64,000 nt of DNA from Capsaspora owczarzaki ATCC 30864 (lineage: Eukaryota; Opisthokonta; Filasterea), in NCBI RefSeq assembly GCF_000151315.2, contig NW_011887296.1:1312660-1376659 (forward strand). Reading direction: 5' to 3'. Positions 17,501 to 63,500 of this stretch are shown here, one piece after another; position 1 is the first letter of the stretch; every line of letters starts with the position of its first letter. Under the pieces are notes generated by a model. The model was not told the DNA's origin. It saw only the letters and a program-made list of their open reading frames with translations, and did no database searches. The position numbers and the translations under genes are program-made.

Positions 17501-20062
17501 AGCCCGGTCTTCGAGCCATTCCAGCACAGACAGCATCTCATTCACTTCCGCTGGCTCCTCAAGGCGAGCCGTGTCAACAATTGGTTGCACATTGGTGGGA
17601 AGTGGAGGCTCGCTGTCGTCTTCGTGGACATTGGACGACTCTTGCATCGGCTCTGGAAACAAGGCTCGATGCATGCCCACTGAAGGCATTGGCTGGATGT
17701 GTTTCATCCGCGGTTCTGGGCCGTGCAACTGGAATTGACTTGAGGGAGTGGCGGCAACGCGCGGGTTGGGCTGCTGCGGTCGCGCTGGAGTGTGCAACGA
17801 GGTGGTGGACATGGCTGCCTGCGAGTCGGAAGCCGATCGTCCGTCTTGCCCCAAATCTTGCTGCAAAAGCTCGTAGGCCTCATTCATGGCGGCTTCCATC
17901 ATGGAGGTCTCGAATCGGTCTCGAGGCTGCGACTCTTCGGAATACGACGATGCTGCGAAAGGCGGAGCTGGCGCTCCAGCGACAACGCGCGAAAAGGCCG
18001 ACTCGCGAGGACCATTTCCCATTGCCATTCCAGGGATGGGCGACGCTGCTTCGCGAGGAAAGTCATGCACGAGACCCAGAGGCGACAAGGCGCCCTCGCG
18101 CCAATCCGAGTGAAAGGTCTCTGGCTCAAAAGCGTGGAACAGCACCTTGGCTGGCCCTCCTGGCGCGGCTTGCCCATGGCTTAACCTTGCCAAAACCACA
18201 GGCATGGCTCGATGCTGCTGTGAAGGGAACATGGTCGTGTCTACTACAGTTGAAGGGAGCGTTGGAGCGCGACCAACGCGCACATCATCCATGTCTCGCG
18301 CGTCGTCAGGCTGGAGCGTGACGAGATCATGCATGCGTTGGCGAAGTTGGACATCAAACGGGGCTGGGGCCGGCAGCTCCCGTTCTTGGGTTCCTGGCGG
18401 GGTGATTTGGGACGACATGCGGTCGCTGCGCCGCCGGGCTCGCTCGTCGTCCCAGAGGGAAGCAAGGGATTGGACCAGATTTTGCTCTTGCACGCTCCCG
18501 CGCCCGAATGCAGTGCCTGGCTGCGAAGCGGCAGTCAACCGCGCGATTTTAATGTCGTGGCGGTTGAGAATCTCTGAGCAGAGCGCATCAATCTCAATTT
18601 CACAGGTGCTTTGTCTTGCAATCATTCGCGTGGACAGCAGTTCTGTGGGGATTGTGTCGGCTGTCCAGACGGTGGGCGATGGCAGGCTTGATGCCGCCAA
18701 CAACGACGACGACGCAGCGTCACTTGCTGTTGTTGCGCCTGCCTTGGACGGAGAAAACTGGTGCGTTGCGTGAGGAGCAGCATCCTGAGACCCACCGCCG
18801 CTCGGACCATACACTCGTCGAGCGGCTGGGCTGTTCCAGAGCTTGAGCAAAGCGGGCGGAGGGGTGCTGGAAGTCTGCACTGGCGTGTGTGGGTGAGACA
18901 AAGAGTGCTGACTCGGAATCGGCTCGGCGGAAAATGCGGACGTGACACCAGCTGCGACAACAGACACGGGTCGCCAATAGTCGTGGATTCGCCCTGGATT
19001 GACGCCGCACTCTGGAGCGAGCGGCTGCCGGAAGCGAGCGAGCGACAGTTGCACGAAATTCATCCCGTACAAGTTAAAGTCGATGAGAAACTGGAGCAGG
19101 AACGGGATGTGAGCCTCGTACGGCTGAAACTCACGGCCCATCACAAAGCCACTCTGGAGCAAGTGCACCACCTTGCCAACCGTGGCAGGATTGAACAGGA
19201 AGATTTTGAGGAAGAGGCGATCCCTCGGCGCATATCCGTAAAATGGCGCGCCCTGAGCCAGGACAATCTTGAAGACATGTTGGCCTTTGCGACGCATGTT
19301 GGCAAACCCGCCAGCTTGCTGTGCGGCAGGTCGCCCAGGTCCCGACAGCCCCGGATTCTGCCTTGATGCGGCAACGCTTGCGGCGGTGGAATCTCCGCCA
19401 GCAGAGAATCCCGTGTTATTGAATGCGTCCACAGCGACGTCGATACTAACGGCCATCTGGCAGCAGTACTGTCGTACATCGCGGTCGGATGAAGTTGGTC
19501 CGTAGTAGGGAATGTAAATGTAAGGAAATACCTGTCAAAAACAAAAAAACAAAAAGTCAGAAGGACAAGAAATCTGAGATTGACTGCTTTGTGCAATTCT
19601 CCTCTGGTGTTTGTTTGTTTGTTGTTTGTTTGTTTGTTTGTTTGTTGTATCGTCTGGTACTCTGAGGAGCTGTGTGCTTACGCGATGTATGTGCAGGCAG
19701 GTACGCTGGCCGGCTGGCGTTGATCCGTAGAGCCGAATGACGGGAACGCGGTGGCACGATGATCCGTCGTGGTCTGTGCGCATCACATCGAGCGACGGCA
19801 CCGGGGCAGTCATGTATGAATCGGCATCCACAATGCGCATCGAGAAGAAGGCCGGGGTCTGGTTGGCAGTCGCTGACGCCGGCGGGGCAGGAGCTGAGCT
19901 TGCATGCGAGCTGTCATCATGATCATCATCATCATGGGCTGCATGAGCTTTGTCGTCGCCATCGTCGACCACGCGGTCGTGATTGCCGTGTGGAGACCAG
20001 TATGTGCGCTCTCTGCTTGAGGGCCGATCGGGCGGCTTTGAGCTCTGCGGCGGCCGTTGCAT
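11577..20062 (-). CDS. REV3: DNA polymerase zeta catalytic subunit REV3
   Basis: This B-family polymerase performs translesion synthesis in the nucleus. Three exons, 20062-19682, 19531-13334 and 13157-11577, join in phase 0 to give about 2719 residues. The N-terminal family signature (RIVDADSYM, TPAGQ, FPYIYIPYYG) is split by intron 1. Polymerase motif A is DFQSLYPS near residue 1800, the motif B region reads YGYTSANFSGR, and motif C is YGDTDS near 2119. The exonuclease-like region reads SLEVH, so the first catalytic acidic pair is altered, as in other REV3 proteins. The C-terminal cysteine modules are CPVC..CVSC (about 2480) and CGSC..CVSLDC (about 2526), the latter expected to hold a 4Fe-4S cluster. 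A tail of about 170 residues follows. ATG at 20062 gives a longer start; a second ATG (MRIVD) is a plausible alternative. Confidence 0.95.
19609..19647. repeat. (TTTG)n microsatellite in REV3 intron 1
   Basis: TTTG/TTG units lie in the first REV3 intron. A similar T/G-rich run occupies intron 2 near 13265-13325. Confidence 0.85.
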
Positions 20063-29644: not shown

Positions 29645-32482
29645 ATGTCATCGCTCAGCATCCGGAGCGGCTTGATCTGCACGGCGGCCATTTCAGCGGC
29701 TGTGATGACAGCGTTTTGGCAGGCTGTGGACGGGAACGGGGCGTATCTCCTACATCCGACCGCTGTTCCGAACGGCGGCGACATGTACTCGCATGTTGAC
29801 GAGGCGCTGTTTGTCTATCACAAGCTCAAGCACTATCACCACCAGCACCAGCAGCCAGAGCACGACGCGTTCGCATCTGCAGCAGCGCAAGGAGGGTTTG
29901 GCTGGTGGTTCCCATACGTCTCAACCGGGTACCCAATGTTCCTGGCCTACCAGCCGCTGCCGATCGTGTTTGTCGCGGGCATGATGTACTTGCTCGACGG
30001 CGTCATGCCTCCGATGGCGGTCTTCCGGTGCTGTTTTGCGGGATTGTGGACGCTCGTTCCGTGGGCGTGGTTTGTTGGCGCGCGCTGGCTCGGACTGCTG
30101 CCGCTCGAATCGTCCGTTCTGGCAGCGCTCTCGATCGGACTCGCCAGCTGGAGGGCGTTCGGACTAGAATTTACAAGCATTTCGGCGTATGGCTTGTACA
30201 CGCAGGTCTACGCTGCCGTCCTGCTGCCGCTGGTCGTCGGAGCGCTGTTCCGCTTGATTTGTGCGTCGTCGCTGCCAATACCGCTTGCAACTCGAGCCAG
30301 TCAAGGTGTGCCAACGGAGCCCGCACGACCTGCGGCATGGTCGCCATCACGTTGGTGGCCATCGTCTCCCTTGCTCGCTTTCGAAGCCCCAAAACCCATC
30401 TCACCGGCCATGACCGTCGTCTGCTTTACGCTCACGTGCCTGTGCCACGTATTCTTCGGAATGTTTGCTGGTATTGCTAGCCTGACACTGGTGCTTGCTG
30501 CCTGCCTTGTCAATCTTGCCGAGTCCCAGCACCGGACCTTGACAACCTTTCGAGCGGCGCTGTTGGCCCGAGTTGTCCCTTTGGCGCAAGTCTACGCCAT
30601 CGCATTGGCGCTGCTCCTTTGGTGGCTTGTGCCCATGGTTCTTAAGATGCCTTATGTTGGAGGACTGCCGTGGAAGGGAGAGAGCGAAAACGGCTACCCA
30701 ATCTCAACGCTGATCGACAAATTTTGGAGCGGGCAAATGCTGGACTACAACACGCCTGTACCAGTGATAACCTACGCCAGTGTTGCAGGGGTGGTTGTAT
30801 TGTCGATCGAGACTGTTCAAGCCGTGCGCTCTGTCTTGAACCTGAAACTGGCGACAAGCGCGCAAACGGCCAGCAAACTGCAACTCGGCCTGTTCCTACT
30901 CTTCCAGCTTGCGATTACATGGGTGCTATTTACTGGCCGGACAACCTTGGGCTGGCTGTTTACGTTGCTACCATTCCATGCGGAACTCGAGGTGATTCGC
31001 TACTTGAGCGGCATTCAGTACCTCTGCGCCGTGCTTGCTGCAGTCTCGATTGCCGCCGGCATTCGACTTGTCAGCCAGTGTCTCGTGGCTACGTTTTCTT
31101 GGATTTTGTCTCTTGGTCGGAAGACGCAGCGGACGGGAGGAGATCCAACGGCAACGCAACGGACAGCTTCGTTTCGCGCCACCCACGCTATTCTACCTTT
31201 GGTCTTATTTGCGCTCGTTGCAATTCCTTTTGTCGGACTGCGACGCGAGGCTTTGCTGAGAGAACTAACCCTCGAGTACCCGGACTCGACCCTCTTGAAC
31301 GAGACCTGCGAACTCGTCCGGCAAGTTGCGCCGAATGGGAGAATGTTGCTGCACAAGCGCCTTGGCACCGACCAAACGTTCATGTACAACCACTTTCCTT
31401 TTCACTGCGACATTCCTGGCTTGTTCACGTACTCGCGCGGCTATCACGACTCGCTCTCGGTCTACCCGATCGAGTATTTGCAGCCAACACCGGACGACAT
31501 GCGGCTTTACAACATTCGAGCGCTGGTTGCACGCACCTATGCCAAGGATGGTGCAGATTTGTTTGCCCTGCTGGCTGGAATGGACGAGCTTCCCGAATCC
31601 AACCAGGCCTTCCACGTCTATGCGCCGCGCGCGTCCTACGGCCACTTTGAATCGGTTCGGACTGGCGGTTACGTGGCAGGGGATTTCAAAGCTGCTCGTC
31701 CTTTGATTGTCAACAGCATTGTTCCCATGTTCAAACATGGGGTGGTCTTGGAGTTTGCGAGAACGTCGGCTGTCGTGCAACAGGTGCCTGCTCGTTCTTC
31801 CGGCGCCTCTTCGCCTCGAACCAAGCCAGATGATGTGCTCGCTGCGATCGGCGCGGATGTGGCGTTTCCTCTGCAAGAGCAGCGGTTGCTCGCCGAACGG
31901 CCGTTCCTTGCAGCAAACGCTTCGTTCTGGACGGTGCTTTCCGCTGCTGCGGAAGGGCATGGCAGCACAGATGGATTGCTCCATCCCTTTGTAGCAGACC
32001 TGAGTGAGTTTTACAGCCAGCATCCTCCAGACGGGATGCGCGTCCTCGACGAGCATGTGCATCTGTTGGATGCGACGTACGCTGCCATCGTGGAAGTGAC
32101 AAGTGCTGCAGTGCGGCCCGTTTCATCGCTATTCCCTCCAGATCACGTTCGCCTGATGCTGAAAGTCACGTTTCACCCGTATTGGAGCTGTCGTCTGGTT
32201 GCGACGCAGCTGGACGCCTTCTCGTCGAGCACCAGGATTGCCGAGTTGCTACCAACCGATGCTTGGCTGCACGTGCCCGTAAAGCACACCACTCCCAACA
32301 TGATGGCGGTGGATGTGCCGGCGGGCCGGTACTTGGTCGTGTTCCAATACGAGAACCCGGCGTTTCAACAAGCTCTGGCAATTCTTGCGCTCTGCTTGGC
32401 ACTGCTCGGGCTACCAGCATGGATGATGTTGATTTGGATTGGTCACCGTCGCTCCGATGTGCTGACAAAGAAGATTCAATGA
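29645..32482 (+). CDS. multi-pass membrane protein, GT-C glycosyltransferase-like
   Basis: A single intronless frame of 945 residues. After a first hydrophobic segment comes a loop with GGDMYSHVDE, then GYPMFLAYQPLP, followed by many transmembrane helices up to about residue 540, a large soluble domain, and a final helix before a short cytosolic tail. An acidic first lumenal loop plus the G-Y-P..Y-Q-P-L-P pattern resembles YfhO-type and 6-pyruvoyl-tetrahydropterin-synthase-related bacterial membrane proteins of the GT-C fold. That would predict transfer of sugar from a lipid carrier, but the substrate cannot be read. The soluble C-terminal part contains repeated aromatic-rich beta segments. 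Confidence in the coding region is high and in the function low. Confidence 0.8.
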   Translation: MSSLSIRSGLICTAAISAAVMTAFWQAVDGNGAYLLHPTAVPNGGDMYSHVDEALFVYHKLKHYHHQHQQPEHDAFASAAAQGGFGWWFPYVSTGYPMFLAYQPLPIVFVAGMMYLLDGVMPPMAVFRCCFAGLWTLVPWAWFVGARWLGLLPLESSVLAALSIGLASWRAFGLEFTSISAYGLYTQVYAAVLLPLVVGALFRLICASSLPIPLATRASQGVPTEPARPAAWSPSRWWPSSPLLAFEAPKPISPAMTVVCFTLTCLCHVFFGMFAGIASLTLVLAACLVNLAESQHRTLTTFRAALLARVVPLAQVYAIALALLLWWLVPMVLKMPYVGGLPWKGESENGYPISTLIDKFWSGQMLDYNTPVPVITYASVAGVVVLSIETVQAVRSVLNLKLATSAQTASKLQLGLFLLFQLAITWVLFTGRTTLGWLFTLLPFHAELEVIRYLSGIQYLCAVLAAVSIAAGIRLVSQCLVATFSWILSLGRKTQRTGGDPTATQRTASFRATHAILPLVLFALVAIPFVGLRREALLRELTLEYPDSTLLNETCELVRQVAPNGRMLLHKRLGTDQTFMYNHFPFHCDIPGLFTYSRGYHDSLSVYPIEYLQPTPDDMRLYNIRALVARTYAKDGADLFALLAGMDELPESNQAFHVYAPRASYGHFESVRTGGYVAGDFKAARPLIVNSIVPMFKHGVVLEFARTSAVVQQVPARSSGASSPRTKPDDVLAAIGADVAFPLQEQRLLAERPFLAANASFWTVLSAAAEGHGSTDGLLHPFVADLSEFYSQHPPDGMRVLDEHVHLLDATYAAIVEVTSAAVRPVSSLFPPDHVRLMLKVTFHPYWSCRLVATQLDAFSSSTRIAELLPTDAWLHVPVKHTTPNMMAVDVPAGRYLVVFQYENPAFQQALAILALCLALLGLPAWMMLIWIGHRRSDVLTKKIQ

Positions 32483-32698
32483 TCGAGATGTTTGTAATAA
32501 TCAAACTTTGAATGGCAAACAAAAAAGTCAAGGCAAGTCAAAACGGACGGTCAAAACAGAACAGCTACATTTACACACAAAACGGTAGCCTGCACGTTGC
32601 AACCAAAACCCACATCCAAAATGACAACCATATGCAAAGCTGCAGATACAACTGAGAGGGAGCGGGGCGGAAAGAGAAACGGAAGAGGAGCCCTGTGT

Positions 32699-33415
32699 CT
32701 ACTGCCTTGCAACACCGACAGTCTCATAAGCCTCGGCCGTCGAATCCAGCGGCCTTGGTGCCACCGCAGTGTAGGAAGTGGCGTTCGGATCTGGTTGCTT
32801 TTGTACCAGTGTCGAGGTTGAATACGGACTGACGGTCGAGTCAATCGCTCGTGGAGCGACGCTGGTGTAGTTGGATGGCTGAATCGGCTGGAATGGCTGG
32901 TCGCGGGGCAGCGCGCCCTCCGCTGGCGGGACGACCTCTGCATAATCTACCGAGGGTTCATAGCTGACACTGCCAGATTGCGGCTGGAGCTCGACGTAGC
33001 TCAGCTCAGGTTCTGGCTGCTGCTGCTTCTTTGAACTGCTTGCATTGCTCTTCCCTGCGGTCGTCGTCGTCGCCGGCATGCCTGGCCGGTCGAGCGCGTT
33101 TGAAATGTCGTCCGCAGATGCCAGACGACTGTTCGGCCGCTGATCTGATTTTGCAATCTGCTGTTCGTCGTCTCCTTGCCGGCGTCTGCGACAAAGCCAG
33201 ACAACGATGCCCAGAACGACTAACAGAACGACGCCGCCAACGGACCCGCCGACGGCAGCACCCACCGTCGTGCTGTCCGCAGCCATGACTGGCGTCGGTG
33301 CGAATGCGACTGCGGCTACGACGGAGAGTCCAGCAGCAGCAGCAGCGGTGGTGACTGTTGCGATTCGCTTTGGTCGCATCTTGGTCTTCTTCTTCTTCTT
33401 GCTCCTTGTTTCCAA
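32699..33415 (-). CDS. single-pass membrane adaptor with tandem tyrosine motifs
   Basis: An intronless frame of 238 residues. A basic N-terminus precedes a hydrophobic signal-like segment (about 18-46), an extracellular part of only about 15 residues, and a transmembrane helix (about 52-74) followed by Cys75 and RRRR. The 160-residue tail has seven tyrosines (140, 152, 158, 183, 198, 215, 230). Three match the ITIM consensus [SIVL]xYxx[IVL]: LSYVEL, VDYAEV and SNYTSV; TSYTAV and EAYETV come close. A 14-residue motif is duplicated at 181-194 and 213-226. This layout resembles LAT/PAG/LIME-type transmembrane adaptors that dock SH2 proteins after tyrosine phosphorylation. That role is inferred from motifs, not homology. 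A start at Met13 is also possible. Confidence 0.75.
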   Translation of the reverse strand: METRSKKKKKTKMRPKRIATVTTAAAAAGLSVVAAVAFAPTPVMAADSTTVGAAVGGSVGGVVLLVVLGIVVWLCRRRRQGDDEQQIAKSDQRPNSRLASADDISNALDRPGMPATTTTAGKSNASSSKKQQQPEPELSYVELQPQSGSVSYEPSVDYAEVVPPAEGALPRDQPFQPIQPSNYTSVAPRAIDSTVSPYSTSTLVQKQPDPNATSYTAVAPRPLDSTAEAYETVGVARQ

Positions 33416-34576
33416 AATTTTACCACTGACGGTTTCGAAAAAATCTCGAGTTTATACAAGTGTGCGTTTCACACGAAGGCTGGATGGATGCCCTAAGTGA
33501 ACCAAAAAAAAAAAAAAAAAAGTTTGAATGGTCAACGAAGCGAAACAGCAGTCCAATGCAAAAGGCCAGCAAGGTTCAGCAAGGTGAGTGAATTGCAGCG
33601 CGATACAAGCACTGGAAAGCAACAACAACAACAGCGTGGTGTTAATGTTGAGTGGTGGTGAGGGAGAGTGGATGGAGAGCCAAGTGGGCTTGCTCACATT
33701 GGTGAGAAGGACTCCCTACTACAACTCAGTCTCACCTCGCACCCGTCTCACCTCGCTGACGAATCACCAACATTAGACGAGGGGTGATTGCAACAGCATT
33801 CGTACGGACGTTTTGAGCTTCACGGGTCAAAATGAACGGGACTCTCTCTCTCTCTCTGTTGTTGTTGTGGTAATGACCGATGGGGGGGTTCTCTCAATCT
33901 GCCGTCCTTGTCCTTGTTCTCACTCACTCACTCACTCACTCACTCACTCTGCTTTGAATCAAACGCCTTCTGTAACTCGCACTGAGCTTGTTCTCATTGA
34001 ATCACGGCTCTCTTTGTCCCTCAGTTGATCAACGACCTGCTCCTCGCTTGCGGTTGTTGCTGGTTTCGCTGTGCGTTGAGCACGACATGTCACACTCTCG
34101 CTCTCTTCCCGCTCTCTCGCTGTCTCTGGCTCGTTCTGCTAGTCACCGTTTTGATCATGACTCTCAACCGAAGTGGGGAGGGGTGAGTTGGTCATCCCTC
34201 CCTCGCTTCTGCTTCTCTTTGTCTGATCATCAACTTACAAAGACAAAACAAAAAAAAAAAAAAAAGTGAACCGCAGACAAATTTTGCTAGTGATTTTTTG
34301 ATTATGTCCGATTCAAAAGCACAGCTGTCATGCAATCAAGGTGGGAGCGATTGGAAAATCATGATGCGATAGTACAGCGAAATAAAGGGGGGGGGAGGCA
34401 AGGCAAAGCTTATTGGTCTGAAGAAAGTGAGCAACAGCAACCCGCCGACACTCAGAACTGAATGCCAGATCGCCTTGCAGCATGCGGATAGATGGGCCGT
34501 TTGAATGTGGATGAGACACTATTTCGAGTAGGTAGTTGAAACAATACACGTTGAACGACGCACAAGGAGAAAGGGG
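33416..34576. other. intergenic spacer
   Basis: No gene is supported. It contains an A run near 33503-33521, a CTCA tetranucleotide repeat near 33919-33949, CT-rich tracts and another A run near 34250-34265. The proximal part should include the promoter of the adaptor gene. Confidence 0.6.
33919..33949. repeat. (CTCA)n microsatellite
   Basis: About seven to eight tandem copies of a four-base unit in a spacer. Confidence 0.9.
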
Positions 34577-37500
34577 TTACACCAGAGCCGGAGGAGTTGG
34601 CACGTCGTCGTCTGCAAGCGCAACAATCTTCTGAACCTCAGTCAAAGTTGCCGTGGGTTTCTCAAGGAGTGACTGAAGGTGACGTTGATTGCGCAGGAAG
34701 TGACGCCGCTGAGCACGAGCCACAGCGTCGTCAGAGTCGTCCAGATGGACCCGCTGCTCCAGGACTCTTGTGCCACCGATTTCTAGCGACACAGCAAGCA
34801 AGCCTAGACTGAGAAAGTCGGCTTGCGGAGTGGCGACTCTGTCACTGCGCGCAATGTGGTAAAAGTGGCTTGGCCACACGCTCCACGAGTTGGCCTCGAC
34901 ATGTCTGAGCCACAGTTTGAGCTCCTGAGCAGCTGCGACCGTCACAGGCGCTGCCAAGAGTGCTGCCTGCACATGCTCGCGCGTCACAGCTGGAAGGAAG
35001 CAAGAAAGCCCAAAATCGACCAACGCAATCGAGAGATGTGGGGATTTGGGAGGCACGAGGGTCGAGGTCGGAGTCTCTTGCTGCTGAGGAATTGAGCTGG
35101 GCAATTGCGCCTCGGTGACGAGCAGGTTTCCACAATGAATGTCGCCGTGCACCACACCTTGCGCATGAATCCAGCGAAGCGTGTCGCAGACCTGAGACGC
35201 AAAGTTTGCCGCATACGGTTGATGCTGCATCCAGTCCACACTGTGACCAGAAATGAGGCCCGTGACCAACGCCAGGCCAGGGGTTCCGTCGAGATTGACA
35301 GTGCAGAACGATAGCAGCTCGGGAATGCCATGAGCAGCAGCTTCCTTTCGGTCACGGTTGAGAAGGGCTAGCGCCATGCCCTCTCGCGCCAGCTGTTCTG
35401 TGAGCGGCTTGCGATTTGCGGCTGCAACCTTGACCACCACGTTGGTGAATTCCTCGCTCGAGTTCAGGCGGAGCTTGCCGGTGAACATGAAATCGCGATG
35501 AAAGACCTGGGCATCGAGCAGAGGTTGCGGGCCGGTCGTCTGCACAAGGTCGAAGAACAAGAGCCAAAAGCGAAAAGTGAAGACAAAAGAGTTGCACAAG
35601 ATGCACATGATGCGGATGATACATCCAAACCAGACGAGACATTACCAAACTGAGAACAAGGGAATTGGTCGTGACGACATTCCCTCCAGCACCAGCGGGC
35701 GCGCCACCGCCGGCTGCATTGTCTGGCTGGCCTGGAGCTGCGGCGCCAGGATTTCCGGCGCGTGGGTCAGTACAACCAAAGTTGCATGTCCAAGAATTCG
35801 GGTCATCGCTGTTTGATGGTGCATTGGTTTTTGCAGCGGCGTGGTGCGCGAGGATGGATTGCCACACCACAAAAAGAACCGCTCGTTCTGGATCTCGTGT
35901 TTCGGCAAACGTAACCTTGGGCGCAATGAGCTTGCCATCCTGCTTTAAATCGACTCGAGTGACAGAGACCGTGTCGGCTTCGCACCAAACGAGACCGTAA
36001 AGAAAGTCTGGCCAGGATGTCACCGGCACGCCTGTTCTGAACAGAGAGCGAGCCACATAGCTGGCGACTTGCAAACGAGCATGTTGAACATCGGCAAAAA
36101 CCTTCTTGACTTCGACAAACAAACGGCTGTAATACAGGAGAACGTCCACTCGAGAACCAGCGGAGGTAGCACGAGACGCACGGGGAGAAACGCGATCAAC
36201 TGCCCAAGTGGTCGCAATTACATCAGCAGATTTTGTGCTACTGTTAGCGTGAAAGTTGAGTTGCGCGCCAACTTGTTCGCAGACGGCCTGGCAGTAGTTG
36301 GCAACAGCCCAATGCATGTCCGTTTCGTGACCAGTCCGGCTCGCATCGTTCCTGACGTCCTCCAACTTTTGATGAAGTGCATTTCTGTCCAGGGGTGGCA
36401 GTCGCAAGTCACTGAGGTTGGTCTGCAACGTGGGGTTAGGATCCTTTGTGACAAAACGCGCTACGAAGGTTGCGTTGGTGCTCGATCCGATCTCAGACAC
36501 TACCAAATATCGTGCCGTTCACACTGAGTTTCAACCAAGATTGCATATCAACGCGGGGGGGGGAGAGACATGAGCGCAAGCAACGGATGCGAAACTTACA
36601 AAAGCGAACTCGATCTACTTGCAGCTCCTGAACTTTATCACGTTCGTTCTCAAGCAGCTGCTGAGCTTGATCACGTTGGATCTCAAGCAGCTGCCGATCT
36701 TTCTCAAACAGCTGCTGATCATGAGCACGCAGCTGCTGAGCTTGATCACGTTGGTTCTCAAGCAGCTGCCGATCTTTATCAAACAGCTGCTGATCATGAG
36801 CACGCAGCTGCTGCAAATGAACCACTTTTGCGTTGGCTGAGAAAAATTCCAACACAAAGCTCGTCAGAAACAGGCACTCATTCGCACGCACAGATTATGA
36901 AAGCAGCCAACAGAAAGCTGCACCAAAGAAATGCTCGCTTTTCACCGCGTTCAACTCACCGTCAAGCTGGGAAAAAGTAGCGTCAAGATTTGGCGTGGAC
37001 AATGATGCTTGAGGGTTCGTGGATGGTCCAGCTTGAGGTTGTACCGCGTCATTGGTCTACAATCAAAAATTTTGAATTGCATTAGCCTTTTCGACTTGTG
37101 CGTGCGTACGTGTGCGTATGAGTGCGGTGGGTGGAAGGCGGCAGAAAGAGCCGAGACAATGACAACCAAGCCAAACCAGAACCCCTAACACACGGCCTGC
37201 TGACCGTCCACGGTGTCTATGGAGACGGCATGTGCGTGCGTGCCCAAGACCGCCCGTGGAAGCTCCGGCCAGAGCATCCAAGTGCGGGGGAAGAGCAATA
37301 CACAAACCAAAAAAAAAACCCGAACACAAACAAACAAACAAACAAAAACGCTTTACCACTGCCGGAGCAGTCTCGGCAGAGCTTGTGGTATGACTATTGG
37401 GCGGTGCTGAAGCTGCCAACTCAGTCGTTGTCATCATTGCTGTTGCTGGTGAGGTTGTGAGAGTGAGTGGAGCAGCGGCGGTCGATGCGGCTTGCAACGA

Positions 37501-37653: not shown

Positions 37654-39053
37654 GCCAAAGGGGAAAAAAAAAAAAAAAACTGGTTCTACTTTGACGCAAG
37701 CTCTCATCGGATGTAGTCCTTGAATTTAGTGAAATGATGATCAACATCCGCTAACGCAGTCCATGGAGCTCAAAAACCGCGCGAAGTTCCAGCACGACTT
37801 GTTGCATGCCATTTGGCAAATTGGCGTTGATCTGCTTTCGCCCTCAAATCTCGTTCATCCGCATTGAAGAAATCAACGAGAATCAACGAGTCTTTTTCAG
37901 CATTGCTTGAACAACTACACGGGCTATCGGTCGTGTTCAACACCCTCGATGCGAACTCCCGGTGTTACCCGAGAGGGAGGAAAATGGGTCGATACGAAGT
38001 GACCATGTTCTTCTGCCCCCATTTCCTTCCTCAACTCTTTCCATTCATCCATCCATCGTTGACCGTCCAATAGAATCAAATGCAACATCCTCCATCATCC
38101 CACATGTCGCTGTTGTTGTCTGAGAGTTGTTCCCCTGCCTTGATTTTTTTTTTTTTTCAGATTTCCTTCCCCAACTCTTTCCATTCACTTATCCATCATC
38201 GTGGACCGTCCAATGCAACCTAATGTAACATTCTCCATTATTCTTGCATCCATCCACCTCGCTTTCTGTCTTTTCGATTCTCTTCCTTTTGTTCACTTTC
38301 CAATCCTTTTTTTTTTTTTTCTTTTTTTTTTTTTTTCCAATTCAAAACCGCTGCTTCGATTTTTCAAAAAAAAACAAAGCTTTGGTATTTTATTTCTTTT
38401 ATGATTGTTCTTATTTTTCAAACTCGCTGCCTTTTTTGCAAAGTGAACAAAAGCGCACGACTCGGAATGAAAAAAAAGCAAACAAAGCAGACGTTGGGTT
38501 TTGAGTGATGAGAGCGGGGCGAAAGCAGGAAGCGAAGCGAAGCAGCAGTGCAGCGTGAAGGAGTGCAGCCAAGCCAAGCAAAGCCAACACTCTCACTCTC
38601 ACTGAGGCTGAATACGGGGTTCGACTGACTCTTCCCCCCCCCCTCCCCCTTATCGTAGCAGCATTGCAAGACAAGAATGCAGATTTCACCAACGGACACG
38701 GGGAACTGCGATCGAGTGTGGCTGTTGCTGCATGGGGGGACCAACACGCTCATCCCAATGCTGCTCCATCTCATACTCATCCCCCCCCCTTTTGTCTGTT
38801 CCCCTCCACTTCCCCTTCCGTCTCACCGCTCATCATACAGACATCTCTAGCAGTACAAGCTTGTTCAACTCGCGGCTCTTCTTCAAACAACCTTTCTGGT
38901 CCTTGCACTTTGCATTTGCACTTTGGCTGCGAATCTATTTTCAAACCGCCTTCCGGCCAAGCTTGACCCCCCCTCCCCCTGGCCAACTGACCCCTGGGGC
39001 CGCTCCCTGTAAATTGAACCTCGCTCTCTCTCTCTCTCTCTCTTTCTCCAGGG
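37654..39053. other. intergenic spacer between divergent genes
   Basis: No gene is supported. It holds several T runs (38145-38158, 38310-38336) and a duplicated pyrimidine-rich phrase (near 38025-38070 and 38165-38210) that suggests a local tandem duplication. A CT microsatellite lies just before the ATG at 39054. Promoters of both flanking genes must lie here. Confidence 0.55.
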
Positions 39054-42000
39054 ATGGACAACTTCCGGCGGCCGTCGCTGTCGTCGCTGCTGATGGCTGC
39101 AAACAGCGAGCACAACATTGCGCTGCAGATGGCCGACGATGCGGATTTGCCACCGCCGCCGCCACCGCCCGTGCTTGCAGCGTCTGCACTCCCGTCTGCG
39201 TCGGGTGCGTCATTCGGGTCATTCCACGCGCTCTCCTCGCTGCAGCAGCAACAGCAGCACGCGTTGCCGCCGCGATTACCGGCTGCACTCTCGCTGCAGC
39301 ATCTTGCCATGCCAAGCCCACCACCGGGATTTCACGCCACATCGAGCTTGGAGGACTTTGGCTCGGCCTCCTCCATCAACAACATTCCCAGCTCGAGCAG
39401 CAGTGGGAATGGCAACAAGGTGGCCGAGTCGCCTGCCCCGGCTCCAACCCACTTTGACGACTCGGTCGCCCAGCAGCTCTTCCTGGTGCACGTCCGCCTG
39501 CCCACGGGTGAGTCGGTCGGTGTGCTTGCATTGCCATCGCAGACCTTGCGCCAGGGCTTTGGCCACATCACGGCCCTCGTCGGAGCCACCATGCACACGC
39601 ATAGCCTGTTTGTCGCAGAGTCTGGCGCCGCCAGTGGCCAAGCATGCAGTTGGGAGGACCGCGCATCGCTCTTGCGTGGCCGCACCGTGTCGCTTATTGT
39701 CACTCCCGAGGGCGGAGTCTCCCCCATCGTCTCCCGCACCATCCCCAAAAGCGTGAGCACAAACAGCCTCGCAACAGCCGCAATGGCCATCAATGCCGCG
39801 CGAGACCCGTCACCGATTCCAATCATCCACGACCACCATCACCACCCAGAGGAGCAGGCGGCCGCCAACGAGAGCATCACCATCGAACTTGATCCTCAAG
39901 CGCAGGCGGAAGCGCTCGCCTCCAAGCTACGGAAGCGCACAGCCATCGCCAAAGAAATCTTGTCCACCGAGCAAACCTACGTGCGTGCCTTGGAAACACT
40001 CATCACTTGCTACCTCAATCCAATGCGCCACAAAAAGGTGCTGCCTGCGGAAGACATTGCCATCATCTTTTCCAATGTCGAGTCCATCGTCGGCGTCAAC
40101 AACATGCTGGCGCTCGAGCTCGAAGAGGTCATCCAGTCGTGGGATCCGCTCCAGACCCGACTTGGCTCCATCTTCCGCAAGCTGGGCCCATTCATGAAGC
40201 TGTACGTCAACTACTGCAACAACCACTCGCACGCCATGGTCATGCTTCAGCGGTACTTGAAAAAGAGCGAGACGCTGCGAACCTTCCTCAAGCGACAGCA
40301 AGTGGAGGCCCAGACCATGTCCACGCCATCCAGCAACAAGTCTGGGTCGTCATCCGCTGCTGCCACTACTGCCGCATCCTCTGTCGTGTCTGCACCGGTG
40401 GCCGTCTCGGCCCATGCAGGCAATGCGTCCATCTCGGGCAACGGCATTTTGACTGTCGCCAACGCCACCAACACGGCCCTCGACTCGCTGCTGCTCATGC
40501 CCGTGCAGCGCATCCCACGCTACCAACTGCTGCTTGACGATCTCGTCGAAAATACGCCCGCAGACCACGAAGACTTTGCCGACCTCACCACCGCCGTCGC
40601 ATTGATCAAGACGCTGGGCTTTGAAATCAACGAAGCCATCCGTCGCATCGACAATGAAATCAAAATGGCCAACATTGAGAAAATGTTTGCGAGCGACAAC
40701 CTGGTGCTCATTGACTCGCAGTATCGCTTGCTGGATTTGAACACCACGAGCAGCGGCAGCGGTAGTAGCAACAGCGGCCGCTCGCGTGGTGGCAGCGATG
40801 GACCCGCCCCCGACTTGGAGGCCTCCGGTGGCTCCGGCTCTGCTGCCTCTTCTCCCGCGCCATCTCGAGGCGCCCACTCTGGCAGGCTGCTCGGCAAGCT
40901 GATGGGGCGGCAATCCTCGTCGGAACCACAGCTCGCGAACGCAAACTCGGGCACGAATGTTGCGGCCGCTGCTGGTGGTGATGGCGTGCTGACATTGTCC
41001 GCACCACCGCGCCAGTTTGTCCAGGAAGGCTTTTTCATTGTCACCGACTTTGGTCAACATGAGCGGTTTCTGCTGCTCTTTACCGACATGCTCATTGTGG
41101 CCAAAGTCGAAAAGAACACCACGTTCCGTGTCAAGGACAAGCTCATGTTGTCGCAAATGTGGGTGGCCAACTACGAGCAAGAGGATCCGTTTTCCTTCAT
41201 CATGGGCTGGCCCCAGTACAATTGCTCGCTCACGGCCGCCTCAGCCAAGGACAAGGACCTCTGGTTTGGCATGATGCAAAAGCAGATTGCCGACGAGAAG
41301 GCACGCGACACCACCTTGGCCCGAGGGCCTGTCAAGATTCACCTGGACGACAGCGTGAACGCGCTTGGTGTCCGCCAAGGCGCCCTGCTCTCGAAGAGCA
41401 TCCTCATGACCAATACAGACACGACGCGCGCCGCCATCGAGATGGCACTCCGAAAGTACGACCTCAAGGAGGATGCCAGCCAATTCCAACTGTGGGAGTA
41501 CCTGAACGGCGCAGAGCGTCTCGTCCACGCGTTCGAGTGCCCGTTGCTCGTGTTTGCCGGAATGGAGGCCAAGCCAAAGAAGGACGACGCGCCACCACCG
41601 CGCCTCGTTCTCAAGCGGCGCGATCCCAACTTTGAGTTGCCAATGTTCATGCGTCCGCCTCGGCAGCGCTCGCACACGGGCAATCGCAGCGTCAACTCTC
41701 TCGGGCCGGGCGATGACCTTTCGTTGAATTCGTCGACAGGCCAGCAGTCGCTGGGCGTCCCAGGGGCCAGCGCTGCCTTCTCGTCGCGCACTCAGCGTGC
41801 CCAACGTGCCGTCCAGCAGTCTACCACCGTCATCCCGCCATCCGGTGGCCTCCTGGACGTGTCAGCAGCTGGCAAGCAGCAAGCCGGCATCGGAAAGCTC
41901 TTTGCCGGTCGCTCTGTACGACGCCGCTCGAACAGCGGGGTTGTACTGGATGGAGATGGCTCGCTATCGCCACTGGATCTGTCCGAGGATGGGTCGTCGA

Positions 42001-44231
42001 CGACGGCAAGTAGCTCCTTGGCAAGCGCTCGCGCTGGGTCGTCATCGCCTTCCAACTCGAGCCCCGTCGCAAACGTGTCCCGCGACATCCCAACCAATCT
42101 GTTTGGCTTGCCTTTGTACGAGATTGTCGAACACGATCGTCTCCACCCGGTACTTGCCGAGATGCTTGGCTTGCTGTACGCGGGATGCGGAAGCCAGTCT
42201 GCCATTTTCAACCGCAATTACAACCTGGAGCTCGTACGCGATTTGCGGCGGACGATCGACGCAGAGATTGATGTTGACCTGCGCGTCTTGCCGTTCGGTG
42301 TGCTTGTGGGTCTCTTTCTCGAGTTTTTACAAGCCCTCCCCGATAGTGTCTACAGCGGCCTGCGCGCCAGCGATTTTGACGCGCTTCGCAAAGCGCCAGC
42401 TCCTCCGCTCCCAGGAAGTCCCGCCAGCCATGCCAACCATCAAGCCAAGCCAAGCTCAGGCACCACGACCACCGCAGCATCGTTTTTCAAATCCGGCGCG
42501 GGCGAGTTGCCCCCGGGCTTTAGCGCCGCCCTCGAGTCGGCGACTGCGTCCGCGGACAAGGTGGCCGTGCTCCAGCGCATTGTCAACCGGTTTCCGCACT
42601 GCAACTATGTCTTTTTGCAATGCACCATGTCGCTTCTCCACAAAATCTTTCTCATTTCGGCTGAGAACGCCAGCGACACTGTCAACATTGCGTTGCGCAT
42701 CGGCCCTCCGCTGAAAAAGGAAGGTTTGCACGAGTTTATTCGCGTGCTGATCGAGTATGCCCCCGACGTGTTTGGCCATGCTGGCGAGCTGGCCATGCAA
42801 GAGATGATGGTGCCTCAGAGCAGCATGCCCGGAATTGCGCTTCCCGGCATGACTGCTTTGCACGGCGGTGGTCTCCCGGCACCCAACGCGGGTCTGATCA
42901 CCATGGTTGCGCGGTCTTCTGCTGGCAGCGGTGGCGGCAAGGTGCCGTTTGCACGGCAATCCACGAAGCGCAGGCCGCTTCGTGTCAAGGTCATGCCTGA
43001 CGTGCCTTCGACGCCCAATAGCAGCACCAGCAGCGAAGTTTCATCCCCTGGCGTTCCTACTTCACCCTTCCGGCGAGGCTCCAAGTTTGCCAGCTTGACG
43101 GACTTGTACAACCAGCGCCGACACTCTCAGCTCGACCTTCTCCAAGGTGCCGGTGGCTCGACGCAAAGTCTGTCCACCTGGGCAAACGCGGCACCTCCCA
43201 CCGAGCACAAGGCTGTTCAAGTCAACCTGCTTTCGCGGGATGCCAGCCTCGCCAGCGTGGTGGACGAGGATGTGGTGCTACTGCCGCCTCCCCCTCCGCC
43301 GGTCGAACAAACCCCGAATGTTCACCACCACCACCACCACCACAAGAGTTCGATCGCGTCCATCCACACCAGCAGCAGCAGTGGCGGTCGCGGCATTGCC
43401 TCCTACAATTCGGCTGCGTTCGAAGAGGCCTTGGACGACTTGCCACCACCGCCTCCGCCGCCGGGACGCGGTAGCCACGCATTCCAGGATGCTCATGTCG
43501 GGTCCATGTCCAGCCTTGAAAGTGAGGACACCATGTCCTACGAGAGCGATAGCAACGAGTTGCCGGCGCCTCCACCGCCGCCGACAACGACGAACGGCAA
43601 CTTGCATCGCCGTACCTTGCTGCAGCTGGCCATTTCCGAGGAAGACTTGAGCAAGATTGCAGCAGAGATTGCCGCTGCCGACCCAGAACCGGAACCGGAA
43701 CCAGAAGAGCAAGATGTGGATAGCGATCACGTCTCCAGCGATGAAGAGGGCGAGACGCCTTCCTACCACCATCGCAACGATGACGACGAGCTCATGCTCT
43801 CGTTCAACAAGCGTGCCTACCACATGAGCTCAATGAAGGTGATGGAGTCTAGCACCCCCGATCAAGACGAGTTCAACTCGGTCGACGTACCGCACGCGCC
43901 GCAGTCCCAGGCGATTGATCATCGCCGTGGCTCCGTGGGCACCATGATGTATGCTGGTCACGCGGACGACGAAGGGCATGCGGCCTTTTTGAGTGCCCTG
44001 GGCGGACGGATTGAGGCTGAAAGCGCCAACCCCTTGTTCTCGGCTGCCCGGGCCGACGTTGCTGGCGACGCCTTGGACGACGACCTTGTCGACGAGAGCG
44101 AGTTGTCGGCGTTGACCGCCGTTGCGACTGCCGCTGCGACCGCCCCAGCACCCGTCCCAGCTCCAATCCAACCACCGGCAGAAGTCACGCCCGACCGCCG
44201 CAAGAGCCGCGCAATTGTGACTGAGCTGTAA
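39054..44231 (+). CDS. DH-PH-RA-RhoGAP multidomain Rho regulator
   Basis: A single intronless frame of 1725 residues. A Pro-rich N-terminus is followed by a DH (RhoGEF) domain at about 293-545 (EILSTEQTYV..MPVQRIPRYQLLL), interrupted by a Ser/Ala insert. A PH domain lies at about 655-750, a Ras-association domain at about 758-855 and a RhoGAP domain at about 1014-1242 (FGLPLYEIVEHD). A long disordered tail has several poly-Pro stretches (possible SH3 or EVH1 ligands) and a His run. DH-PH predicts activation of a Rho GTPase and RA predicts recruitment by a Ras-type GTPase. PH-RA-RhoGAP order recalls ARHGAP20. At the arginine-finger position the usual I-F-R reads I-F-N1053-R1054, so the arginine is displaced by one residue and GAP activity is doubtful. 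Confidence 0.92.
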   Translation: MDNFRRPSLSSLLMAANSEHNIALQMADDADLPPPPPPPVLAASALPSASGASFGSFHALSSLQQQQQHALPPRLPAALSLQHLAMPSPPPGFHATSSLEDFGSASSINNIPSSSSSGNGNKVAESPAPAPTHFDDSVAQQLFLVHVRLPTGESVGVLALPSQTLRQGFGHITALVGATMHTHSLFVAESGAASGQACSWEDRASLLRGRTVSLIVTPEGGVSPIVSRTIPKSVSTNSLATAAMAINAARDPSPIPIIHDHHHHPEEQAAANESITIELDPQAQAEALASKLRKRTAIAKEILSTEQTYVRALETLITCYLNPMRHKKVLPAEDIAIIFSNVESIVGVNNMLALELEEVIQSWDPLQTRLGSIFRKLGPFMKLYVNYCNNHSHAMVMLQRYLKKSETLRTFLKRQQVEAQTMSTPSSNKSGSSSAAATTAASSVVSAPVAVSAHAGNASISGNGILTVANATNTALDSLLLMPVQRIPRYQLLLDDLVENTPADHEDFADLTTAVALIKTLGFEINEAIRRIDNEIKMANIEKMFASDNLVLIDSQYRLLDLNTTSSGSGSSNSGRSRGGSDGPAPDLEASGGSGSAASSPAPSRGAHSGRLLGKLMGRQSSSEPQLANANSGTNVAAAAGGDGVLTLSAPPRQFVQEGFFIVTDFGQHERFLLLFTDMLIVAKVEKNTTFRVKDKLMLSQMWVANYEQEDPFSFIMGWPQYNCSLTAASAKDKDLWFGMMQKQIADEKARDTTLARGPVKIHLDDSVNALGVRQGALLSKSILMTNTDTTRAAIEMALRKYDLKEDASQFQLWEYLNGAERLVHAFECPLLVFAGMEAKPKKDDAPPPRLVLKRRDPNFELPMFMRPPRQRSHTGNRSVNSLGPGDDLSLNSSTGQQSLGVPGASAAFSSRTQRAQRAVQQSTTVIPPSGGLLDVSAAGKQQAGIGKLFAGRSVRRRSNSGVVLDGDGSLSPLDLSEDGSSTTASSSLASARAGSSSPSNSSPVANVSRDIPTNLFGLPLYEIVEHDRLHPVLAEMLGLLYAGCGSQSAIFNRNYNLELVRDLRRTIDAEIDVDLRVLPFGVLVGLFLEFLQALPDSVYSGLRASDFDALRKAPAPPLPGSPASHANHQAKPSSGTTTTAASFFKSGAGELPPGFSAALESATASADKVAVLQRIVNRFPHCNYVFLQCTMSLLHKIFLISAENASDTVNIALRIGPPLKKEGLHEFIRVLIEYAPDVFGHAGELAMQEMMVPQSSMPGIALPGMTALHGGGLPAPNAGLITMVARSSAGSGGGKVPFARQSTKRRPLRVKVMPDVPSTPNSSTSSEVSSPGVPTSPFRRGSKFASLTDLYNQRRHSQLDLLQGAGGSTQSLSTWANAAPPTEHKAVQVNLLSRDASLASVVDEDVVLLPPPPPPVEQTPNVHHHHHHHKSSIASIHTSSSSGGRGIASYNSAAFEEALDDLPPPPPPPGRGSHAFQDAHVGSMSSLESEDTMSYESDSNELPAPPPPPTTTNGNLHRRTLLQLAISEEDLSKIAAEIAAADPEPEPEPEEQDVDSDHVSSDEEGETPSYHHRNDDDELMLSFNKRAYHMSSMKVMESSTPDQDEFNSVDVPHAPQSQAIDHRRGSVGTMMYAGHADDEGHAAFLSALGGRIEAESANPLFSAARADVAGDALDDDLVDESELSALTAVATAAATAPAPVPAPIQPPAEVTPDRRKSRAIVTEL

Positions 44232-60531: not shown

Positions 60532-63500
60532 TCACAGCAGAGCCCCGATCTCGCGGATCGCTGTTCCATCCTCAAAGTTTCTCAGAGCTTTGACGAGCTG
60601 CGTAAAGCTTGGTCGTAGCTCTGGGATGGAGTTCCAGCAACTAAACATCAAGCTAAACAGGTCAGTTGAGCAGTGCTCCGGCATGGGTAGTCGACCACCA
60701 GCCTCCAGATGAGCCAGTGCCTCAGCGCCATTCATCTTGCCGTACGGCATTGCGCCGTAACTAGAGCATTCCCCTACCAGCATGCGCCAATAAAAAGTCA
60801 AATCTCGACGCAAGAGCAAGTATCAGCGGAAAATGACGCGACTTACAGGCTGTGACACCAAACGACCAAACATCGGACATGGACGAGAACTTGCGGAAGG
60901 TCATTGTTTCCGGTGCCATCCACTACAATCACCAACACAATTAGAATCACATACGACCAGCAGTGGAGCCATCTGACTCAACCCACCTTCACGGGAAGTT
61001 TGCCTCGCGTTTGCATGCGATAGTAATCTTGCTCATCCGACAATTCGCGGGAAAGCCCGAAATCGGCAATCTTGACCACCATTCCTGGCCCCACGAGACA
61101 ATTGCGCGCGGCAAGATCTCGGTGCACAAAGTTAAGCGTGCCCAGATACTCCATGCCGAGAGCAATCTGACGAATGGCATGCACCTGCTCGTTGTGCGTC
61201 CACCAAAGCGAATACAGCTTGGACTTTTGCAGCAGGGTGCGCAAGTCGCCGTACTGCACAAACTCTAGCAGAACGAGATGGGGCTCTGACTCGACCAGAG
61301 CCGCAAGCAGACGCACGACATTCGGATGTACAAACGGAGCCATCAATTTCGCCTCAGCCTCAAAGTCTTGGCGAGATTTCTCGTCAGCGTCGGCCTTGGA
61401 AGACTTGACTGCAACCATCACGGTTGGAGACGCTGTAGGTCCGAGCAAGGTTTGAGCTCTTGTGGGCAACACGTTGAAAGGCACTTGACCCAGTGACACA
61501 TCGCCAAATTCACCACTGGCAAGGTGCTTCCCAATGGTCAAGCCTTCGCGAACGCGACGAGAATTGCTGCCGGCAACATACGCGCTCGCATCATCGTCAA
61601 CCACCTCCTCTGGCGGGGCGGTCGGGACAGCTTGATACGACTGTGGTTGACCGACCGCCGCATGGGGAATGTCCGCTTTGTCGTGTGCTCCAGCCGAATG
61701 GTTTTGAAGGGAAGTTGTCACTTCATCAGCCTCCTGGTAGATGGGATCGGCAGAATCCTGCGATTCTGGCTGCTGCTTCTGGTCGGAGGTTGAACCGTCA
61801 TCCTCGTTGTGAGATGCGATCGAATCGGGAATTTGGGAGATTGTCACTTCTTCAGCCTCCTGATACATGGGATCGGCAGCGTTCTGCGATTCTGGCTGCT
61901 TTTGGCTGAGCTTGGCGGAGGTTGAGCCGTCATCCTCGATGCGAGATTCAATCGAATGGGCCAGAGGAGACATTGTCATTTCAATAGTCGTCTGATCGAT
62001 GACGGGACTGGCAGAGTCCTTCGGTCGCATGACAGAGCGTTGCGAGCGCCGGCGCCGCAACACGATGAAGACCACCACAATGAGCGCAATGACTGTCACG
62101 GACGCAACGACAGCAGCGATGACAGCCGCCGACGAGGATGAGTCTTGGGATCCAGCGCCGAACTGTGCAATGGAAGATGCAACGGATGCAGCAGATGCTG
62201 ATGCGGTTGAAGCAACAGAAGCGGAGAGGGCAGAAGCAGCAGAAACAGCAGAGGCTACAGATGCGGACGCCCGAGAGGCTGAAGATGCAGCAGCAACGAC
62301 GGAAGCCAACGATGCCGAGAGCGCCGAGGTCGTGGAAACATCAGCTGCAATGGATGCTGATGACGCGCTTGCAGCAGATGCAATAGACGCTGACGATGCA
62401 GCTTGTGTAGACGCGACTGAAGCGGCGGAGGCTTTGGATGCTTGTGTCGCTGCTGACGCTACTGAAGCGACGGAGGCTTTGGACGCTTGTGTCGCAGCTG
62501 ACGCAGCTGACGCAACAGATGCAACAGAGGCAGATTGCGTCGACGCAACAGAGGCGGCGGAGGCTTTGGACGCTTGTGTTGCAGCTGACGCGGCAGATGC
62601 GATCGAGGCTGACGATGCAGCTTGTGTAGACGCAACCGAAGCGGCGGAGGCTTTGGATGCTTGTGTCGCTGCTGACGCAGCTGATGCAATCGAGGCAGAC
62701 GATGCAGTAGCGACGGACGCAAACGATGCCGAGATCGCCGAGGTCGCGGAAACATCAGATGCGATAGATGCTGATGACGCGCTTGCAGCAGATGCAATAG
62801 ACGCTGACGATGCAGCTTGTGTAGACGCGACTGAAGCGGCGGAGGCTTTGGATGCTTGTGTCGCTGCTGACGCTACTGAAGCGGCGGAGGCTTTGGACGC
62901 TTGTGTTGCAGCTGACGCAGCTGACGCAACAGATGCAACAGAGGCAGATTGCGTCGACGCAACAGAGGCGGCGGAGGCTTTGGATGCTTGTGTCGCTGCT
63001 GACGCAGCTGATGCAATCGAGGCAGACGATGCAGTAGCGACGGACGCAAACGATGCCGAGATCGCCGAAGTCGCAGAAACATCAGACGCAATGGATGCTG
63101 ATGACGCGCTTGCAACGGATTGCATGGACGCGTCAGAAACGACAGAGGCGATAGATGCGTTGGTCGCAGCTGATGCAAAGCAGAAGCTGCCCATCATAAG
63201 ATAACCTTCATAGCACTGAGTGCAGGGATTAGATGAAGTGCACGTCAGACAATCGGTCCCGCAACACGCACTGGACCCAGCGGCGTAGCAAGTGGCACAG
63301 GCTGTATCGCACTCTGCAGCTCAAATGTCAGTGAAACGATCACGTGAGATTATACAGCAGTCAGCTCGAACGCTTACTGTAAGGCGTGAATACCCAGCCG
63401 TATGTGCTAGGCGGAGCAACAGTGTTTCCACCAAATGTAAAATTGTTGGGGCTCAGATATTGCAAAAAATTAGACGAACCCAACGACAAATACATGAGAT

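Follow-up and report, generated by a model that had tools for sequence, protein, structure and literature searches.

A 226-residue open reading frame in the genome of the unicellular holozoan Capsaspora owczarzaki probably encodes a membrane docking adaptor with a single pass and hardly any ectodomain, acting in a unicellular holozoan phosphotyrosine system, to judge from its sequence and from that of the genome around it. The frame lies in a stretch of 64,000 nucleotides that was analysed as a whole and is referred to below as the window. The larger result appears to be the class in which this protein is found: dozens of kinase-free, tyrosine-tailed receptors that seem to obey a strict grammar, some of them carrying ectodomains shared with receptor tyrosine kinases (RTKs). 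Such a class may have carried phosphotyrosine signals before animals, and it bears on an open question, namely the route that leads from the receptor kinases of unicellular holozoans to downstream pathways.

The open reading frame and its tail

The frame is read on the minus strand, from an ATG at 33379 to a stop at 32699-32701 (Table 1), the plus-strand frame at the same coordinates being interrupted by stops. An initial sequence-only reading had placed the feature at 32699 to 33415 with its strand unstated; the first of these borders stands, and the second is upstream of the ATG, so that its tyrosine numbers were 12 too high and the residues that it called Y140, Y158, Y183, Y215 and Y230 are in fact Y128, Y146, Y171, Y203 and Y218. 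Its description of a stub ectodomain, a single helix and a juxtamembrane cysteine is accurate: the putative cleavage site would leave approximately ten external residues, the helix ends in VVWLC followed by RRRR, and the sole cysteine of the protein, C63, closes the helix on its inner side, directly before the arginines. A low-complexity linker then leads into a 100-residue tail with seven tyrosines, and the stop lies 159 residues past RRRR. No kinase domain was recognized in the protein by Pfam, and no cysteine-rich or repeat ectodomain is present inside the frame.

Table 1. Features of the open reading frame, of its protein product and of a kinase exon, in window coordinates
Feature	Position	Strand	Basis or remark
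ORF, ATG to stop, 226 aa	32699..33379	minus	in-frame stop 5' at 33452-33454
Predicted signal peptide, residues 1-34 (MRPKR, hydrophobic Ala/Val stretch, PVMAA before and DST after the putative cut)	33278..33379	minus	by eye; cleavage site putative
Extracellular stub, ~10 residues (35-44), leading into the Gly-rich helix start	33248..33277	minus	length hinges on the putative cleavage site
Transmembrane helix core, residues 45-63, Gly-rich start, Cys63 at end	33191..33247	minus	sequence and helix profile
RRRR stop-transfer, residues 64-67	33179..33190	minus	sequence
Y128, LSYVEL, exact ITIM	32996..32998	minus	sequence
Y140, VSYEPS, no ITIM	32960..32962	minus	sequence
Y146, VDYAEV, exact ITIM	32942..32944	minus	sequence
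Y171, SNYTSV, exact ITIM (Ser at -2)	32867..32869	minus	sequence
Duplicated 14-mer, first copy, NYTSVAPRAIDSTV, around Y171	32831..32872	minus	9/14 identities
Y186, SPYSTS, no ITIM	32822..32824	minus	sequence
Duplicated 14-mer, second copy, SYTAVAPRPLDSTA, around Y203	32735..32776	minus	9/14 identities
Y203, TSYTAV, TxYxxV (Thr at -2; near-ITIM)	32771..32773	minus	sequence
Y218, EAYETV, YxxV only (near-ITIM)	32726..32728	minus	sequence
Possible 3' splice site 5' of the ATG (T-tract, then ..CACTTAG)	33492..33530	minus	by eye
Receptor tyrosine kinase exon, candidate upstream kinase	60978..63320	minus	PK_Tyr_Ser-Thr 4.6e-44

The ITIM consensus is [IVLS]xYxx[IVL], preferably in two or more copies within a tail, and the earlier count of seven tail tyrosines, three in exact consensus (Y128, Y146, Y171) and two near it (Y203, Y218), was correct; the TxYxxV of Y203 is presumably ITSM-like. 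Five of the seven tyrosines are followed at +3 by a hydrophobic residue (I, L, V, M or F), which is Val in four cases. When the tail was shuffled 20,000 times with tyrosine positions kept, this count was reached in 0.09% of shuffles (P = 0.0009), and the four occurrences of the broader motif [IVLST]xYxx[IVL] gave P = 0.0001. Two strong features of the class described below, YxxP and a hydrophobic residue at -1, are each found at 0/7 tyrosines. The 14-residue duplication also reported from the sequence is real, none of 5000 shuffles matching the identities of the two copies. It is either old or convergent, since a search for direct repeats at the DNA level gave none; codon positions 1 and 2 agree at 20/28 sites and position 3 at 6/14, as would be expected if the peptide is conserved.

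These patterns make it extremely unlikely that the frame is untranslated and its features the product of chance. Codon usage does not set it apart from its other frames or from its antisense (a score of 0.019, as compared to -0.081 to 0.065 for its other frames, -0.112 to -0.047 for a non-coding stretch and 0.035 to 0.131 for seven long ORFs of the window), but the tail pattern, the 14-mer and the order of residues in the helix, which ranks first of 1000 (see below), all argue against such an origin. It is also very unlikely that the frame is the last exon of an incomplete gene model whose upstream exons encode an ectodomain. Such a model would accommodate the plausible splice acceptor 5' of the ATG, as well as the fact that in 0/7 short-ORF members of the class that were checked does the helix-bearing frame start with Met and a signal peptide, for which reason upstream exons are proposed for those seven, and no other ectodomain-poor member was found among them. 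However, an in-frame stop separates the acceptor from the ATG, so that an intron ending near 33492 would be a 5'-UTR intron, and the ATG directly precedes what by eye is a good signal peptide. Furthermore, a tblastn search of window positions 32001-36600 with the cysteine-rich domain of the window RTK found no such ectodomain (best E = 0.17), and the next long same-strand ORF on the 5' side ends at 34577, a gap of 1.1 kb.

On the 3' side, a convergent ORF (29645-32482, plus strand) ends 216 bases from the stop; it encodes a 945-residue membrane protein matching no Pfam family at E 0.001. A kinase exon 3' of the frame was judged implausible due to the proximity of this neighbor. The 5' neighbor (34577-35641, minus strand) is a divergent kinase-like ORF, with Pkinase at 5.4e-6 (under cut-off) and ABC1 and PK_Tyr_Ser-Thr at 3e-5 and 3.4e-5 (both just over). 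Elsewhere in the window, one long plus-strand ORF (39018-44231) combines RhoGEF, PH, RA and RhoGAP domains, and a minus-strand frame of 2103 residues (13223-19534) encodes a family B DNA polymerase whose N-terminal domain is followed by a very long spacer.

A class of kinase-free receptors with tyrosine-rich tails

The protein is not a lone adaptor in a unicellular genome: 49 kinase-free tails rich in tyrosine, its own included, were found in the 27.5 Mb (29 contigs) of the same genome. These tails come from a census in which a single 41-residue helix, that of locus L015, served as query and collected 88 places; since only helices resembling this one query were gathered, the census is a lower bound and is biased to one receptor type. 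At 17/88 places the kinase matches listed include one within 4 kb downstream of the helix, and at the remaining 71 they include none. Tails were read for all 71 (the protein under study plus 7, 20 and 43 loci), and four or more tyrosines were counted in 55 of them with L024 left uncounted (54 of the 68 with an arginine cluster recognized by script, plus L079). Before statistics, tails with an SH3 domain (L031, L035, L043 and L053; recognized by Pfam in L035 and by eye in the rest), two that looked kinase-like by eye (L093, L024) and a near copy (L074, of L073) were removed; L078 and L082 had been listed for exclusion too but, with two tyrosines each, fall below the threshold in any case. The final 49/71 tails have 4-17 tyrosines each and neither SH3 nor kinase. 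Absence of a kinase was judged from 133 listed kinase places (134 of 545 candidates scored) and from stops in the tails, a stop occurring within the fetched DNA in 47/49 tails, with L054 and L056 still open at its end. Searching with the kinase of the window RTK by tblastn matched 5 of the 40 loci L011-L050, all of them kinases (L017, L020, L026, L027, L028), and none in L031-L050 within 2.6 kb past the helix; this search overlooked the divergent kinase-like L024. A DNA pattern of hydrophobic codons followed by CGN CGN CGN was dropped as a finder, with 269 matches as opposed to 426 in a reversed control.

The members resemble the protein under study in having a glycine-rich helix, an arginine cluster and a tyrosine-rich tail that runs to a stop, among them kinase-free L015, L022, L023, L032-L034 and L036-L038, together with L040, L041, L044-L050, L055, L057-L060 and others. 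The protein itself has the glycine-rich helix with its arginine cluster and, with seven tyrosines and five hydrophobic residues at +3, exceeds the four tyrosines with hydrophobic or proline +3 residues that characterize the class, but lacks the cysteine-rich or repeat ectodomain of many members. It thus appears to be an ectodomain-poor class member by format, its descent being unproven.

Some loci stand apart. L031, L035, L043 and L053 (4/71) carry an SH3 domain as cytoplasmic tail behind the same type of helix, paired in L035 with an M60-peptidase-like ectodomain. L015 and L016 (G000:C13) are neighboring paralogues with helices that are 85% identical, the L015 tail having four YxxPhi motifs and the L016 tail being tyrosine-free before its stop. 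The tails of L073/L074 and of L077/L078 are near-identical pairs, one copy of the first being on a 10-kb contig, and either duplicated recently or were copied in the assembly.

Common descent with the class is suggested by the helix and by no other part, the tail scoring no better than its shuffles on a profile. The helix matches that of L015 at E = 4.8e-4, and the order of its glycine and hydrophobic residues matches other receptors of the genome: on a profile of ten other helices, whose alignment columns were built with the protein present and thus carry a small bias, it ranks 1 of 1000 (itself and 999 order-shuffles), with 51.7 bits, the next scoring 39.4. On a profile of 12 tails from the largest tail family, the tail falls outside the eight best of itself and 999 shuffles. 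Its best phmmer match to other class tails has E = 0.025, and a blastp match to L047 (2.2e-4), made without composition correction, was not relied upon. Searched against its own genome, the tail finds itself and one match at E = 0.44 only; the whole protein finds ten other places, weakly and mostly through the helix, several of which are kinase-free receptors with tyrosine-rich tails. A scan of prokaryote genomes found no relative.

The lack of profile similarity to the largest tail family could also be expected of a relic, that is, a receptor, with or without a kinase, that was stripped of its ectodomain and persists as a remnant or decoy under weak constraint. The cysteine-rich and Ser/Ala-repeat ectodomains of many class members, missing here, point in the same direction, as does L016, possibly a degenerate paralogue unless its tail hides an unrecognized intron. 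Decay is nevertheless quite unlikely in light of the signal peptide, helix, stop-transfer and five +3-hydrophobic tyrosines that remain intact in one open frame, and of the better agreement of the two 14-mer copies at codon positions 1 and 2 than at position 3.

The tails of the class share a non-random tyrosine context. For the 411 tyrosines of the 49 tails, the +3 residue is hydrophobic in 53% of cases (background 16%) and Pro in 24% (10%), the +1 residue is Asp, Glu or Ala in 71% (26%), the -1 residue is hydrophobic in 31% (16%) and the -3 residue is acidic in 25% (12%); Lys and Arg are at 0% at -1 and show no enrichment at +2 (6% vs 7%). The requirement for four tyrosines selects tyrosine-rich tails, the +1 and +3 contexts not being selected for. 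In a set of 40 non-redundant tails from which the protein under study was left out, 0/1000 shuffles reached the observed values for +3 hydrophobic, +3 Pro and +1 Asp/Glu/Ala, and Asn at +2 and hydrophobic residues at -1 were also beyond 1000/1000 shuffles. Nine other proteins of the window (159 tyrosines) served as control and gave 26% vs 25% for +3 hydrophobic, 9% vs 7% for +3 Pro and 18% vs 22% for +1 Asp/Glu/Ala. Summed up as a motif, the class context reads Y-[DEA]-x-[hydrophobic or Pro]. At -2 there is no enrichment in the class either of I/L/V (14.0% vs 13.9% in shuffles, 490/1000 of which reach the observed value) or of I/L/V/S/T (338/1000), so the label 'ITIM' fits the protein under study more than it does the class. 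Src- and Abl-type substrates share I/V/L at -1, an acidic residue or Ala at +1, and a hydrophobic residue or Pro at +3. The tails of L054, L056 and L087 are rich in LYAxP and VYAxP motifs, which we take to resemble Abl substrate and Crk docking sites.

This context bears on the possibility that the YxxPhi motifs serve in endocytic or lysosomal sorting, as signals recognized by the mu subunits of AP complexes, with the protein as a trafficking cargo or cargo adaptor. Considered alone, the protein fits such a role, with YxxPhi at 5/7 tyrosines and YxxP at 0/7, and transmembrane proteins with cytosolic NPXY endocytosis motifs were noted in Capsaspora in 2026 (PMC13171883). For the class, however, the frequent proline at +3, the acidic residue or Ala at +1 and the scarcity of basic residues (0% at -1) argue against AP sorting, and up to 17 tyrosines per tail seem, in our judgement, beyond the need of a sorting signal. 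The argument is weaker for this protein alone, as it has no YxxP and no hydrophobic -1 residue; on balance we regard a sorting role as unlikely and favor that of docking adaptor.

Kinases, SH2 readers and a possible mechanism

The window also encodes an RTK, as the sequence-only reading had stated, in an exon that spans positions 1-169 of the 258 of the kinase profile. The cysteine-rich domain of this RTK is found at kinase-free loci, with identities of 83% over 52 residues in L033, 81% over 53 in L018 and 79% over 48 in L048, and at least 13 of the 20 loci L031-L050 match it at E < 1e-3 in the 1.2 kb 5' of the helix; so one and the same ectodomain type occurs with kinase and with non-kinase tails. 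By eye, the Ser/Ala-repeat stalk of the window RTK is also common to kinase-free receptors elsewhere in the genome.

Potential readers and writers of the tails are present as well. The genome contains 34 SH2 pieces, 16 PTP pieces and, counting tyrosine kinases and others together, at least 176 kinase pieces. One locus (L011, G000:C13:291500-296500) is SHP2-like, with two SH2 pieces and one PTP piece that share a strand and fit within 1.8 kb, read as separate pieces with exons left unjoined; its first SH2 exon, of 151 residues, matches human PTPN11 at E = 8.4e-89, and the PTP piece lies approximately 0.8 kb further on. Residues I54, L65, Y66, Y81, L88 and I96, which we take to line the peptide pocket of the N-terminal SH2 domain of SHP2, are all kept in L011 with the exception of V for I54. 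L012 is a PLC-gamma (5.6e-233) and L028 an Abl (9e-81), L026 and L027 have the SH3-SH2-kinase order of Src, and the SH2 domain of L030 has Nck1 and Nck2 among its single-domain matches, with Grb2 best over the whole protein. The presence of L011 parallels ITIM-bearing receptors, which are accompanied by a tandem-SH2, SHP-type phosphatase in the same organism. Together, the adaptor-like format of the protein and the matching kinases and SH2 readers of the genome support the adaptor reading.

If the frame is expressed and the protein oriented as its segments predict, the signal peptide would place a stub of approximately ten residues outside the cell, and the glycine-rich helix and RRRR would anchor the protein in the membrane. 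Src-type, Abl and receptor-type kinases could then phosphorylate up to seven tail tyrosines, on which SH2 proteins with a preference for hydrophobic +3 residues, such as the SHP2-like phosphatase, PLC-gamma and Src-type kinases, might gather at the membrane as candidate partners; this preference is known for SHP2, PLC-gamma and Src-type SH2 domains from the animal counterparts. For the two 14-residue modules, at a spacing of 32 residues, a tandem-SH2 reader such as the SHP2-like protein would be a good match. A broader scheme, which we regard as possible but doubtful, is that the genome runs tail-swapping receptors reminiscent of the paired receptors of vertebrate immunity, in which similar cysteine-rich ectodomains would be combined with either a kinase or a docking tail (with related helices and SH3 tails), to be read by SHP2-like, PLC-gamma, Abl and Src-type proteins, the protein described here being an ectodomain-less hub of LAT type. 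If this were so, the immune-style division of labor between kinase, docking tail and phosphatase would predate animals.

Comparison with pre-metazoan and immune systems

The general idea of a pre-metazoan docking scaffold has precedents. Choanoflagellate transmembrane proteins with YxxP repeats (PTSG_05573, 12435 and 12436; A9VAL3 and A9V449) have been described, phosphotyrosine peptides from one of which are bound by the Monosiga Crk SH2 domain, and further hits are said to include Capsaspora (PMC5043372). The suggestion from the sequence of a premetazoan SH2-docking scaffold can be kept, but as regards the general idea 'undescribed' goes too far, since that report covers the choanoflagellate YxxP proteins and mentions the Capsaspora hits. 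Like the protein described here, these are transmembrane proteins of unicellular holozoans with repeated cytoplasmic tyrosine motifs; however, their motif is YxxP, three have C-terminal SH2-like domains and the named ones have ectodomains, whereas ours has no YxxP, no recognized tail domain and almost no ectodomain. YxxP motifs do occur, unlike in this protein, in many members of the kinase-free class, and an overlap between that class and the published Capsaspora hits is possible. A literature search, mostly of titles and abstract openings, met no description of the Capsaspora class beyond PMC5043372, and its absence from print is not claimed.

A second precedent, which lends support to the docking reading, is the RM2 module in the tail of Monosiga RTKB, which is disordered, bears tyrosine and, once phosphorylated, is bound by a Src SH2 domain (PMC3584944). 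Its repeated, disordered tyrosine modules share the format described here but act in cis behind a kinase domain, whereas a protein with no kinase of its own must act in trans. The substrates of FAK, SRC and ABL before metazoans are described as still unknown (PMC5043372), and unicellular holozoans apparently lack the FGFR docking proteins Dof and Frs2 (PMC7260276). Kinase-free tyrosine tails, one of them near to LAT in form, and an SHP2-like phosphatase in one genome make the question of the downstream route directly testable with peptides, and transfection of Capsaspora has been published (PMC6001378).

The closest likeness in format is to the immune transmembrane adaptors (LAT, PAG, LIME, NTAL, SIT, LAX and TRIM), although the present protein belongs to a unicellular organism. 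None of its seven tyrosines lies in a YxN motif, the Grb2-type motif, such as these adaptors have. The adaptors are described as having a short ectodomain, one helix and a long tail in which as many as ten tyrosine motifs occur, and a juxtamembrane CxxC palmitoylation motif defines LAT, PAG, LIME and NTAL (PMC2803307). The protein has this format, with no enzyme domain and with its short ectodomain depending on the putative cleavage site, and to this extent the earlier comparison to a LAT/PAG/LIME blueprint stands; its lone cysteine at the helix end, however, is not the CxxC of LAT, PAG, LIME and NTAL, which makes SIT, LAX and TRIM the closer format. SIT, which is SHP2-interacting, is nearest by name and purpose, and is also the only adaptor family among the 13 Pfam families matched by the protein at E ≤ 10, all of which stayed under their own cut-offs. 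Its alignment covers the helix and tail (residues 49-141) and scores E = 0.072, with 14.0 of the 27.6 bits required; the best matches, equally under cut-off, are DUF6232 (E = 0.0006) and the ErbB1 membrane segment (0.004). These values agree with the earlier statement that no sequence homology to immune adaptors is apparent. We thus consider it reasonably likely that the protein is a LAT/SIT-like docking adaptor that is analogous, rather than homologous, to those of the immune system. If so, membrane docking adaptors had more than one origin, and a logic used in immune signaling predates animals.
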